From NCBI GenBank assembly GCA_021845505.1, contig JAJZVU010000027.1, positions 1 to 51,426 of the forward strand: DNA of 51,426 bases, read 5' to 3'. Positions 46,875 through 51,426 of the stretch are shown piece after piece. Under the pieces are notes generated by a model, which saw only the letters and a program-made list of their open reading frames with translations, made no database searches and was not told the origin of the DNA. A program made the position numbers and the translations under genes. The DNA is from Pseudomonadota bacterium. GTDB lineage: Bacteria; Pseudomonadota; Gammaproteobacteria; Burkholderiales; Burkholderiaceae_C. How positions within the stretch are numbered: position 1 is the stretch's first letter; every line of letters starts with the position of its first letter.

Positions 46875-47633
46875 ATGCCACTGGCGGTGCTCGCGAGCCG
46901 GGCACTGCTCGGCCTCGAAGCGCCTGCGGTGCAGGTGGAGGTGCACCTTTCGGGCGGCCTGCCCGCCTTTTCGATCGTCGGGCTGCCGGAAGCCGAGGTG
47001 CGCGAGGCGCGCGAGCGGGTGCGCAGCGCGCTGCTGAACAGTTCGCTGCCCTTTCCGTCGTCGCGACGGATCGTGGTCAACCTGGCGCCTGCCGACCTGC
47101 CGAAGGAATCCGGCCGTTTCGACCTGCCGATCGCCGTCGGACTGCTGGCCGCCCAAGGGGCGATCGACCCGGCGCGGCTGAGCGGCCACGAGTTCGCCGG
47201 CGAGCTGTCGCTTTCCGGCCAGCTGCGCCCGGTGCGCGGAGCGCTGGCGATGGCCTGCGCGGCCGGTTGCGACAGCTCGCCGCGTTTCGTGCTGCCGATG
47301 GCCAGCGCGCGCGAGGCCGCGCTGGCCGCCCCCGACGCGGTGCTGGGCGCTCAGCACCTGAACGACGTGGTCGCATACCTGTGCGGGCAGATCCACGCGG
47401 ATGCGTTGCGTGTGCCCGTCCCGGTCGCGACCCCGCCCGCGCTGGCCGACCTGGCCGACGTGCGCGGCCAGGCGCTGGCGCGGCGGGCGCTGGAAATCGC
47501 CGCCGCCGGCGGCCACCACCTGCTGCTGGTCGGTCCTCCGGGAAGCGGCAAGACCATGCTGGCGCAAAGGCTGCCGGGCCTGCTGCCGGAGCTGACGCGG
47601 CAGCAGGCGCTGCAAAGCGCGGCGATGCTGTGA
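46875..47633 (+). pseudogene. comM: comM (YifB), interrupted by a Tn7-like transposon
   Basis: The first 252 residues of ComM/YifB, a hexameric AAA+ helicase that extends branch migration when natural transformants integrate DNA. The N-terminal ChlI-like domain (about 1-170) and the Walker A GPPGSGKT (220-227) are intact. The frame stops just after LQSAAML, and the Walker B, lid and C-terminal parts (about half of a normal ~500-residue protein) are missing. Native sequence ends at about 47628; the final Leu codon and stop use transposon bases. The fragment is probably non-functional, so transformation may be impaired. Confidence 0.93.
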
Positions 47634-47636
47634 AGC

Positions 47637-47690
47637 GCAGAATTATCCCGGACATTTCCACAAGAGAGCCGAATTATTTCGGACATATCC
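47637..47690. repeat. two 23-bp transposon-end repeats (probable TnsB sites)
   Basis: Copies at 47637-47659 and 47668-47690 agree at 19 of 23 positions and start 31 bp apart. The shared core is GAATTAT-N2-CGGACAT. The second copy also contains the small palindrome CCGAA-TTAT-TTCGG. Position, length and spacing fit transposase-binding sites at a Tn7-like end. Confidence 0.82.
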
Positions 47691-47825
47691 CCCGCTTCGA
47701 CAGTGGGAAGACCTTTTTCGGCCGCGCAGCCGCGAGAGGCGCATTGCCCATATCCGCGCATCGTGCTCAGCGGGGTGTGCCTTCCAATTTCCGAAGCCCA
47801 CAAATCGACGCGCATTTTCCTTAGA

Positions 47826-47881
47826 GGCCCATTTGATGGGGCCCGCGCCAACAATTTGCATTTTTTAGCATTTTGCATTAT
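47826..47881 (+). promoter_or_regulatory. operator/promoter-like region upstream of the XRE gene
   Basis: A perfect inverted repeat CCCAT-TTG-ATGGG (47828-47840) is followed by a markedly AT-rich tract with three GCATT repeats starting at 47858, 47868 and 47875. The XRE gene begins at 47915 behind a strong GGAGG. No -35/-10 pair with normal spacing is convincing. An autoregulatory XRE operator overlapping the promoter is inferred from position. Confidence 0.5.
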
Positions 47882-47914
47882 CGTGGTTCACGGGTAGATC
47901 CACGGAGGTCAAAG

Positions 47915-48139
47915 ATGACGACGAAGATCGGAACGCTCAAGGCAATGCGTCTCGAGAAGAGGCTCACGCAGGCCGAGGTAGCTGCCAAGATGAAGGTCAG
48001 TCAGTCCTACTACTCAGGCATCGAGCAGGGGAACAAGCCTGGCGAGGTGGCCGAGGCGATGCAGCTTGTCAATCGGATGCGCTTCCGCGGTGATCGCACC
48101 CTTGGTGGAACACAGAAGGCTGGCCGAAGGAAGGATTGA
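47915..48139 (+). CDS. small XRE-family helix-turn-helix regulator
   Basis: A 74-residue protein that is almost entirely a lambda-repressor-type HTH (about residues 7-58, with [20 protein letters not shown] as the helix-turn-helix) and a basic tail. GGAGG lies 6 nt before the ATG at 47915, which fixes the start over an earlier one. It is first inside the transposon, in front of the SEC-C gene and tnsAB. It probably regulates its own operon or element gene expression. XRE regulators occur in other Tn7-like elements, though their roles differ. Confidence 0.85.
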
Positions 48140-48221: not shown

Positions 48222-49823
48222 ATGCAGACGCCCCCTCAACGCAAGATTGGCCGCAACGAACTGTGCCCATGCGGGAGCGGGAAAAAGTTCAAGCGGTGCC
48301 ATGGCTCCACCGAGCGGCTGGATGATGTCGCCGAAATGCTGAGTCGCCTGCCGACACTGACGGCGAGGATGCGTGCAAGGGAACTCCAAAGGGAACAACA
48401 GCAGGGCCTCGGTCGTCCCATCGTTTCCGCCGAAATTGGCAGCCAGCGATTTGTTGCAGTGGGAGGGCGTCTCCTTCATTCGTCGCGGTGGAAGTCCTTT
48501 CATGACTTCCTCATCGACTACCTGAAGGGAGTTCTTGGCGCGGAGTGGGGCGAGGTAGAACTCGCTAAGCCTGCCGATGCACGTCACCCCGTAATTGTTT
48601 GGTACCAACTCCTTTGCGAGCACCAGCGGTCGTTCATCGTTGAGCCTGGAAAGGTGGTTGGGGCGCCGATGACGGGGGCGGTGGCAGCCTTTCTGAGCCT
48701 CGCCTACGACCTCTACGCGCTCGAACACTCCGCAGAAGTACAGCGCCGCCTCCTCGGCCGACTGCGCAATCACAAGACGTTCGAGGATGCGCTCCAGGAG
48801 GTGCGGGTAGCCGCGCACCTGTTACGTGCCGGCTTCGAATTGGAGTTCGAAGATGAGGACGATGGCAGTTCAACGCATGTCGAGTTCACGGCCACGAGCA
48901 AGCGCACTGCCAAAAAGTTCTCTGTCGAGGTCAAGCGACGCCACGCAGATCGTACGAAGGTCAATCGGCTGTTGCATCGCGCGCTCGTAAAGGAAGCGGC
49001 GCACGAGCGCATCGTCTTCATCGAAGTGAACGAGCCAGACTCGCTGTCGACAGAATTTCCCCCAAAGGTCCTGAAATACGCGCAAGCGCGGCTCTTTCAG
49101 TTTGAACGGGATCCTGGGGCTGCGCCGTTGCCGCGCGCCTACGTGTTCGTCACCAATGCTCCTTGGATGCATAGTCTGACCGGCCAAGATCACCGATGCT
49201 CGCTGCTCCTTCACGGGTTTCGAATTCCTGAAGTGCAGCAAGGGCATCCGTTCGTCTCGCTCCGCGCCGCAGTTGACGCTCGGGACAAACATCGAGAGAT
49301 TTTCGATATCGCTCGATCAATGCGGGAGCATGCGACGATCCCGTCGACCTTTGACGGCGAGGCACCGTCAGTCGCCTTTCACGCCGCCCAACATCGTCGA
49401 CTCCTGGTCGGAGAACGCGTTGCCGTGCCGGACGAAACGGGCGCGAATTGCGAAGGCGTGCTTGAACAAGGGCTGGTCATGCCGGAGAGTTGCGCTGCGT
49501 TTTGCGTTGTGAGGCTGTCGGATGGTCGCAGGATCCTATGTACCGTTCCGTTGACTCCCGAAGAGCTGGAGGCATGGCGCCAGCACCCTCAAACCTTCTT
49601 CGGAGTCATCGACCAAAATGTGAAGCCGCCTGTCAAGGATCCCATCGGGTTCTATGATTTCTTCTTTGATTGCTACCGCAACGCGCCGCGGGAGCAGCTT
49701 CTCCAGTTGATCAAGGGCGAGCCCGACTTCGACGAACTGTCCGAACTGGACACGTACGAGCTTGCGAGAACCAGTTGTGAACGGATGGCTTGGCGAGCAA
49801 TGGCGCTTGGCCAGGCTTCCTGA
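48222..49823 (+). CDS. SEC-C zinc-motif protein with PD-(D/E)XK nuclease-like core
   Basis: A 533-residue protein of unknown function. The N-terminus has a SEC-C metal-binding motif [13 protein letters not shown] (15-27), similar to the SecA tail. In the middle, [18 protein letters not shown] (193-210) followed by HVEFTAT and VEVKRR (E236, K238) resembles a PD-(D/E)XK nuclease fold with Glu221 where Asp is usual. The C-terminal 290 residues match no family I recognise. The ATG at 48222 was chosen because it starts directly before the zinc motif; the frame is open upstream. Lying between the transposon end and tnsA, it could be cargo (for example anti-phage) or an accessory to transposition. 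Confidence 0.7.
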
Positions 49824-49918: not shown

Positions 49919-50554
49919 GTGAATCCATTCCCGCCCGTCCGAAAGATTGGCATTCAGACGCGCAGCGTCACGGGCACGATGCCCGGCGGCCAACGCTATG
50001 AGTCATCCCTCGAGCGCGACCTCATGGAGCTGGTTCGCGACGACCCCGACTTCGAGTCCTATCACCCTCAACCCGTTCGCATCGATTACGTAGGCGCTAC
50101 CGGGGAAGCGAAGTCCTATACGCCCGACGCGTTGATCTTCTGGAAATCAGGTCGCCGGCCGCTGCTCGTTGAGGTCAAGCACCGCGAAGATTGCCGTGGA
50201 ATCTGGCGAGAACTCATGCAGAAATTTCGTGCGGCCCGAGCGCACGCTCAAGAGCGCGGATGGGACTTCGCCGTCCTGACGGAAGATCGGATTCGGGGCC
50301 CACGCCTCGAGAACGTTCGCTTCCTCCATGCCTACGTCCGAGTGCTTGGAAGCCCCGCTGTTGAGCAGGCCATCCTCCTGGCCATTGAAGAAGGACACGT
50401 CACACCCAAGGCGATACTCGAACACCTTGACAGCAAGGGCCATGAGAAGGCGTCCACTCTGCCGAGTCTTTGGCACCTGATTGCCACGCACGCTGTTCAG
50501 ATCGATTGGACACGCAAGCTGGGCATGACGGTCGAACTGCGCGTTGGAGCTTGA
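49919..50554 (+). CDS. tnsA: TnsA-like transposon endonuclease
   Basis: A 211-residue restriction-endonuclease-like protein that cuts the 5' ends of a Tn7-like element so that it moves by cut-and-paste. The start motif RKIGIQTRSVTGTMPGGQRY and YESSLERDL match the family. The nuclease site is Glu28/Glu32, Asp70 in SYTPDAL and Glu85-x-Lys87 in LLVEVKHR. A C-terminal winged-helix region (EEGHVTPKAILEHLDSKG) follows. The GTG at 49919 gives the best family N-terminus; an ATG at 49790 adds residues that look out of frame. tnsB starts one base after its stop. Confidence 0.88.
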   Translation: MNPFPPVRKIGIQTRSVTGTMPGGQRYESSLERDLMELVRDDPDFESYHPQPVRIDYVGATGEAKSYTPDALIFWKSGRRPLLVEVKHREDCRGIWRELMQKFRAARAHAQERGWDFAVLTEDRIRGPRLENVRFLHAYVRVLGSPAVEQAILLAIEEGHVTPKAILEHLDSKGHEKASTLPSLWHLIATHAVQIDWTRKLGMTVELRVGA

Positions 50555-50555
50555 C

Positions 50556-51426
50556 ATGAAGCGACTGGCCCCCGGGTCCGTGATCGCCTGGCAAGACGAG
50601 CAATGGATCCTCACCGACTTGGTCGGTCTGGATCGCGCAGAGCTCCGGGCGATGAAGGGACGGCGCAAGGTCCTTGCGCCGGTGGCCGAGTTGTCATGGC
50701 CGGCGCCGGTTCCACCACGGGTGGGGATTCATTCCATCAGCGAGTCTCAGTGGGACAAGGCTCTGCGCACCTTTGACGCGCTGCAGGCGCTCATTGCCAA
50801 GCCCCGTCAACAACGAGGCCATGCCGAGGTCGACGCAGTTGCCGCGAGGCTTGGACGCAGTCGTAGCACTGTCTACTCGCTGCTCGCCAGTTGGGACAGC
50901 AGCGAACGGGTCTCCGACTTTGTCAGAAAGTCTCGTTCCGACAAAGGCGGTAGCCGTCTCGCACCCGAGGTCAAGTCCATCGTCGAGCGTGAGATCGATC
51001 AGGTCTATGCCCGACAGGAAAGGCCCACATTCGCGGAAACCTGGCGAAGCGTTCGTCTTGCATGTGTGATGGCAAAGCTCCCGCCCCCCTCAGAGGGCAC
51101 GGTCGTGCGCGCGATTCGCCTGCGCAATCCACGCGCGATGGACACGGCCCGGTATGGCGCAAAGCACGCCCGCGAAAAGTACGAGCCACTGCGCGGGTCG
51201 TTTCCCAATGCCGATTTCCCGCTTGCCGTCGTTCAGATCGACCACACTCCGATCGACCTGATCCTGGTCAGCGACCACGACCGCCAGCCGGTGGACCGCG
51301 CCTACCTGACCCTAGTCATCGATGTGTGCACGCGGATGGTGGCCGGCTTTTCGGTCGCCTTTGAGCACCCCGGTGCGTTGACCGCTGCACTGGCTCTGTC
51401 TCACGCCATCCTTCCCAAGGACGAGT
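50556..51426 (+). CDS. tnsB: TnsB-like DDE transposase (partial, runs off window)
   Basis: An open frame of 290 residues to the window edge, encoding the front of a Mu/TnsB/TniA-type transposase that cuts and joins the 3' ends. The N-terminal third carries a helix-turn-helix DNA-binding part (VAARLGRSRSTVYSLLASW, about 96-114). The integrase core starts with VVQIDHTPIDLIL, in which Asp229 is the first catalytic residue, then YLTLVIDVCTRMVAGFSVAF. The second Asp and the Glu lie beyond the window. The ATG is one base after the tnsA stop, so the pair is translationally coupled, as in Tn7. Confidence 0.9.
   Translation, partial: MKRLAPGSVIAWQDEQWILTDLVGLDRAELRAMKGRRKVLAPVAELSWPAPVPPRVGIHSISESQWDKALRTFDALQALIAKPRQQRGHAEVDAVAARLGRSRSTVYSLLASWDSSERVSDFVRKSRSDKGGSRLAPEVKSIVEREIDQVYARQERPTFAETWRSVRLACVMAKLPPPSEGTVVRAIRLRNPRAMDTARYGAKHAREKYEPLRGSFPNADFPLAVVQIDHTPIDLILVSDHDRQPVDRAYLTLVIDVCTRMVAGFSVAFEHPGALTAALALSHAILPKDE

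Follow-up and report, generated by a model that had tools for sequence, protein, structure and literature searches.

The stretch of DNA analysed here (the window, 51,426 bases) is the complete contig C6 of a draft genome of 3.7 Mb in 84 contigs. Near its right edge, comM is broken by a Tn7-like element whose left part carries a gene (48222..49823, + strand) encoding P0001, a 533-amino-acid protein with a SEC-C zinc motif and, in structure models, a PD-(D/E)XK-like core and a Tudor-like barrel. The target gene comM encodes a YifB-type ATPase; its N-terminal part occupies 46875..47628 on the + strand (TIGR00368, E-value 4e-77, and NF007365; start according to the NCBIfam model). Hidden Markov model matches place its N-terminal half at C6:46896-47636 and its C-terminal half at C3:3346-4089, on contig C3, which holds the right end of the element (locus L043). 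The left end (47629..47914, +) shows the terminus TGTGAAGC and two 20-bp subterminal repeats. The left junction at 47629 reads GATGC followed by TGTGAAGCGC and the right junction at L043:3347 reads GGCTTACA followed by GATGC, the element finishing in GCTTACA. Its termini are of the form TGT...ACA, with a 5-bp duplication of the target: the left copy of GATGC, inside comM (47624..47628), equals the five bases past the right end (L043:3348-3352). Within the left end, the repeats lie at +12 and +43, are identical at 17 of 20 bases and are candidate TnsB sites; an automated repeat search at 12 bp reported none.

The left end is followed by a gene for an XRE-type helix-turn-helix (HTH) protein of 74 amino acids (47915..48139; Pfam HTH_3, E-value 3e-9), the gene of P0001 82 bp downstream, tnsA 95 bp beyond it (49919..50554; Pfam Tn7_TnsA-like_N, E-value 6e-17, and Tn7_Tnp_TnsA_C, E-value 3.2e-7; start codon inferred) and tnsB (50556..51426; 44% identity to the TnsB of locus L192), of which the contig, ending at 51426, retains the 290 N-terminal codons, all on the + strand. 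The presence of TnsA and TnsB (the N-terminal 290 amino acids only), together with the TGT...ACA ends and the 5-bp duplication, places the element among the comM-targeting Tn7-like elements. The mobile context and the position of cargo on the tnsA side, which an earlier first-pass annotation of the sequence had proposed, are thus borne out by the comM junctions, the GATGC duplication and the downstream tnsA. With a G+C content of 53.5-63.4% over the stretch reaching from its left end to tnsB and of 67.3% in the part on C3, the element lies below the host flank (71.6%). Neither the C-terminal part of tnsB nor tnsC was found in the host assembly (the TnsC query was silent in this genome), and a PF09299 search meant to locate the missing remainder of the element was silent, but so were its controls.

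The zinc motif proposed by the first-pass annotation for P0001 is real: the C-x-C-x8-C-(H/C) signature of SEC-C (residues 11-28, with C15, C17, C26 and H27; 48252..48305, +) matches Pfam PF02810 with an E-value of 6.2e-10 and 39.2 bits for a cut-off of 20.4. It is the sole Pfam match of the protein, none being to a nuclease family, and PADLOC, NCBIfam and PHROGs likewise give little besides this motif. Seven PADLOC 2.0.0 models match P0001, all beginning on SEC-C at residues 6-13, with best stretches that stop at residues 27-30 and in one case at 61; outside SEC-C none of the PADLOC defence models matches. With NCBIfam, residues 384-416 weakly resemble a methyltransferase model (E-value 0.016, far under the cut-off).

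In AlphaFold2 models (predicted template modelling scores 0.78 and 0.86), residues 187-333 (48780..49220, +) show by DSSP an alpha-beta-beta-beta-alpha-beta core, which is the PD-(D/E)XK topology. In the model, E193 is on the helix 187-202, E221 stands beside the strand 222-226, and the strand 232-239 holds E236 and K238, the E-x-K pair to which the first-pass annotation had pointed. That annotation had set a structure model without a nuclease fold as refuting its proposal; the modelled topology is of the nuclease type, although the fold extends to about residue 333 and not 245. Moreover, what had been described as one large unrecognised C-terminal domain consists, according to the models, of several pieces, including a Tudor/SH3-like beta barrel at residues 392-443 (49395..49550, +). 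Searches for solved structures related by sequence returned none with the family profile and one row at an E-value of 1.4 with the core profile, and Foldseek gave no match at E-value ≤1e-3 in the PDB or among viral models. In the fold comparison, the single best nuclease row is, as we take it, a tRNA-cutting toxin domain; restriction enzymes and Hjc also appear, within about 1-3 Z. Central domains of acetyl-CoA carboxylases reach scores equal to those of the nucleases, a likeness that might reflect the chance sharing of a common arrangement.

Relatives of P0001 have a patchy distribution. With the core profile, they were found in 5 of 398 genomes of a phylum sample, 5 of 369 of the class and 6 of 399 of the order (one being a C-terminal piece), counting each time the genome of the window. 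A single-sequence scan of the host family matched 299 of 299 genomes; among the matches listed, the full-length protein is present in three, again including this genome; one more genome (G119) shows residues 435-527 only, the remaining matches do not reach past residue 92 and are confined to the SEC-C stretch at the N-terminus, and the best E-values per genome reveal no additional strong match. Relatives are also present in IMG/VR and in 8 of 72,556 plasmid records (two with a coverage of at least 80%), and absent from the 50,697 GenBank phage records. Eighty of 515 candidate loci (L047-L126), obtained with a full-alignment profile over genome contigs, were discarded as unrelated SEC-C proteins that match by the generic motif only; later searches used alignments of the core (A2/A3) instead of the full alignment (A1).

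We aligned P0001 with 28 relatives, keeping out L163 (C-terminal part only), L140 and L138 (same neighbours as L139 and L157, respectively), L046/L010, as well as L042, with a coverage of 49%, and the two similar plasmids H7 and H8. The 29 sequences have a median pairwise identity of 35% (minimum 22%) and 20 invariant positions. These include E193, E221, E236 and K238, no loss of which was seen in any sequence, while C15, C17, C26 and H/C27 are kept in 28 of 29, the exception (L132) being cut by a contig end. Such sequence conservation by itself is no proof of catalysis in P0001. The ratio of nonsynonymous to synonymous substitution rates is 0.10-0.18 in four pairs of relatives, indicating purifying selection. 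In the tree, the window copy clusters with three viral-contig copies (99/95) and the copies L044 and L045 of the same host family fall elsewhere, which speaks for horizontal transfer. A lone C-terminal piece (residues 435-527) was also observed in genome G119 (L010/L046; L046:7261-8307), beside a DUF4365 gene and near an OLD and UvrD pair; the tail of the family may be a separate module.

The first-pass annotation had also considered that the proposal would fail if homologues proved to be ordinary chromosomal genes only. This is not the case, since they often lie in mobile or defence settings: among the 28 relatives, ten are on IMG/VR contigs and five on plasmids, L157 has neighbours and offsets identical to those of the IMG/VR contig L138, and an integrase lies no more than about 6 kb from L045 and L156. 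Pfam confirmed phage-type neighbours, namely a Mu-type transposase (L137), a portal protein (L165), a tail protein (L136) and Zot (L135), and a resolvase domain in L132; it gave nothing for two of the ten proteins scanned (those of L157 and L141). The portal gene directly adjoins the relative in L165, which, judging from gene order, we take to be P2-like. The stretch between gpA and the portal gene gpQ of P2-like phages is described as a defence hotspot (PMC9122126); L165 shares with it the position next to the portal gene, one of its two borders, but gpA, the second border, falls outside the contig, and where PMC9122126 treats this hotspot it does not name the family.

A defence- or restriction-type gene occurs near at least 11 of the 28 relatives (3 of 5 plasmid loci and 8 of 23 others), a lower bound obtained from neighbours picked by eye, of which 20 were scanned with Pfam (17 matched) and 10 with PADLOC (three matched). 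For instance, in the IMG/VR contig L133 (4470-7754), the genes immediately before the relative encode a SIR2-domain protein and a predicted pPIWI-associating nuclease, and in L155 an Abi_alpha gene lies 38 bp upstream. The others are a type I restriction-modification (RM) system (L037), AbiEi at 4.3 kb (L038), the Gabija pair OLD and UvrD (L041), a trypsin-AAA protein (L134), a C5 methylase (L136), AbiEi and RhuM-Fic (L159), GmrSD (L139), a methylase-like protein (L153) and a HEPN protein (L161). In a less biased comparison, the 110 nearest of 173 neighbours, drawn from 19 loci, matched 291 PADLOC models at E-value ≤1e-10, with type I RM, GajA/GajB, specificity subunits and AbiE in the lead, versus 12 models, led by RtcR-type regulators, for 110 of 187 control genes from 17 loci in nine of the genomes. 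In this tally many models fall on the same few proteins and the matching member is not named; since the type I RM and Gabija matches correspond to what L037 and L041, both plasmid loci, contain, and the control includes no plasmid, it is a contrast and not a rate. RT_IX and PDC-S23, which are strong families in the tally, matched none of the ten neighbours scanned individually with PADLOC.

Taken with its position on the element, these data lead us to regard the gene, with moderate confidence, as accessory cargo of the comM Tn7-like element encoding a mobile, mostly single-gene immune nuclease. Of the two functions that the first-pass annotation had put forward, anti-phage nuclease or transposition accessory, the former appears to be the best supported. 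The N-terminal region, the zinc motif and the barrel would recognise an infection cue, which may be DNA of an invader, modified DNA or something made by the phage. The E/E/E-x-K core would then cut nucleic acid, most likely DNA, and this cleavage would block phages or rival elements. Since no partner methylase is conserved, the cell would be spared through recognition of the cue (type IV-like or activation-dependent) and not through a matched methylation mark. The fold and the site rest on models and conservation, and the mobility and the defence company on genomic context; from these we infer recognition, substrate and immunity. Two points weigh against this interpretation: no mobile marker was seen around 10 of the 28 relatives, which lie on genome contigs (L044, L152-L155 and L158-L162), and RNA is a serious rival substrate, because the best nuclease row is the presumed tRNA-cutting toxin domain. 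The same fold could indeed cleave tRNA or other RNA upon a phage trigger and halt the host cell, as an abortive-infection RNase. We consider this unlikely, since restriction enzymes and Hjc, which recur among the fold rows and make us prefer DNA as substrate, also appear within about 1-3 Z, and since no antitoxin-like partner is conserved. It is less likely still that the protein is a Hjc- or resolvase-like helper of mobile elements in DNA repair or recombination, devoid of any immune role: although Hjc is among the fold rows, the neighbours are of the restriction, Abi and Gabija type, and when 327 neighbour proteins were compared all against all, an approach that shows only partners alike in sequence, no recombination gene recurred as partner.

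Two further explanations start from the place of the gene on the element. We searched 31 loci of relatives (472,350 bases) by tblastn with the TnsA, the TnsB part and the XRE protein of the window and with the TnsB and TnsC of L192. P0001 could be the toxin of a toxin-antitoxin pair in which the XRE protein, encoded on the same strand and 82 bp before it, serves as antitoxin or repressor, and the XRE protein does weakly match a hipB-type model (NCBIfam couple_hipB, E-value 5.6e-6, under the cut-off). However, the XRE protein, a short query with no positive control, has no relative at the 31 loci, nor in plasmids at an E-value of 1e-8, and an adjacent HTH gene is not seen in most relatives; L137 does have a different HTH_3 gene, 1.4 kb upstream of the relative, and L045 has an XRE-like frame on the downstream side, at 2.5 kb. 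The toxin-antitoxin explanation is therefore very improbable, and the control by the XRE protein that had been suggested earlier is not supported. Even less credible is a role as accessory of transposition, despite the location of the gene just inside the left end, on the strand of tnsA and separated from it by 95 bp, and despite the fact that TnsA is itself a PD-(D/E)XK protein. No relative of tnsA or tnsC was detected at the 31 loci at E-value ≤1e-3, the sole tnsB match being the MuA of the Mu-like phage L137 (weak, E-value 1.7e-4), whereas the positive controls L192 and L193 matched with TnsA (E-value ≤1e-47) and tnsB, and L192 with its own tnsC. The survey for joint occurrence of XRE and tnsA with homologues, which the first-pass annotation had called for, thus found neither at these loci, and the accessory role is not supported. 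Furthermore, close TnsA proteins (E-value ≤1e-30) exist in 3 of 260 genomes of the family, this one included, and in the two nearest relatives, L193 (in comM) and L192 (at metH), tnsA lies within about 100 bp of the target-gene fragment with no gene seen between. They agree with the earlier statement that cargo usually lies on the far side of the tns genes. The window is nevertheless not unique in this respect: in plasmid P3 of Deinococcus gobiensis (L196:5223-6929), an MmeI-type RM gene ends 65 bp before the tnsA of a related Tn7-like element, so the slot between the end and tnsA is used elsewhere as well. The L193 element (L193:9056-13110) is a related shortened one, with tnsA and a truncated tnsB, inserted in comM in the orientation opposite to that of the window.

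Upstream of the relatives in L040 (9160-9987), L041 (9170-9985) and L152 (7628-8473), we observed a gene of 271-281 codons with a C..C..SHxIP motif, which the window does not hold. The L040 product is 72% identical to that of L041 and 26% identical over 145 amino acids to that of L152 (E-value 8e-9 in that single comparison); Pfam gave HNH_5 at an E-value of 0.26 for L040 and nothing for L041 and L152. This HNH-like-motif gene may act with the nuclease in some relatives. A broader, tentative and on balance doubtful proposal is that these proteins form an unnamed family (SEC-C / PD-(D/E)XK / Tudor-like) whose mobile members each act alone as an immune nuclease and travel with prophages of the Mu-like and P2-like types, with plasmids and with a Tn7-like element, the zinc motif and the barrel sensing the invader without a partner methylase, some loci having become two-gene systems with the HNH-like-motif partner, and the slot between transposon end and tnsA being a recurrent site for nuclease defence genes, as with the MmeI-type gene of Deinococcus.

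Nucleases of the PD-(D/E)XK type that combine a helix glutamate with an E-x-K site (Hjc, PaqCI/BsmI/HindIII, McrC, XisH and CdiA-CT 4g6v) share with the P0001 model the core topology and the acidic-acidic-ExK pattern, but in sequence P0001 matches neither a Pfam nuclease family nor a solved structure, and it adds SEC-C, an N-terminal region, the Tudor-like barrel and a helical tail. To our knowledge, the presumed sensing layout of zinc motif and barrel matches none of these solo nucleases. No publication on such a protein family was found by title and abstract in the open-licence literature. As in Tn6022, which is reported to target comM through TnsF (Faure et al. 2023, PMC10293859), the element has TnsA and TnsB and is inserted in comM; unlike Tn6022-type elements as presented there, it has XRE and nuclease genes before tnsA, and the host assembly yielded no tnsC (TnsF was not searched for). 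The only TniQ-domain match in the host genome (G000:C39:23170-23316, L170) lies in an open frame about 3.6 kb from a contig end, with no link to the element. The right-end cargo on C3 (L043:142-3271) comprises a flavoprotein disulfide reductase, which on inspection by eye resembles MerA, a MerR-family regulator, and thioredoxin-like and membrane-protein frames recognised by eye.

The cargo of Tn7-like elements described by Benler et al. (2021, PMC8649781) includes mercury resistance as well as defence genes, those for restriction among them. The gene of P0001 resembles this defence cargo in being an immune-type gene on a Tn7-like element and differs from the cargo described there by belonging to a family for which PADLOC has no model and by its location on the tnsA side. 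The tnsA-side end of Tn7-like elements may be worth searching for overlooked defence cargo. E236 and K238 offer a clear residue pair through which function could be probed. If defensive, these proteins would constitute a defence family that consists of a single gene, lacks a model in PADLOC and is acquired by mobile elements of several kinds.
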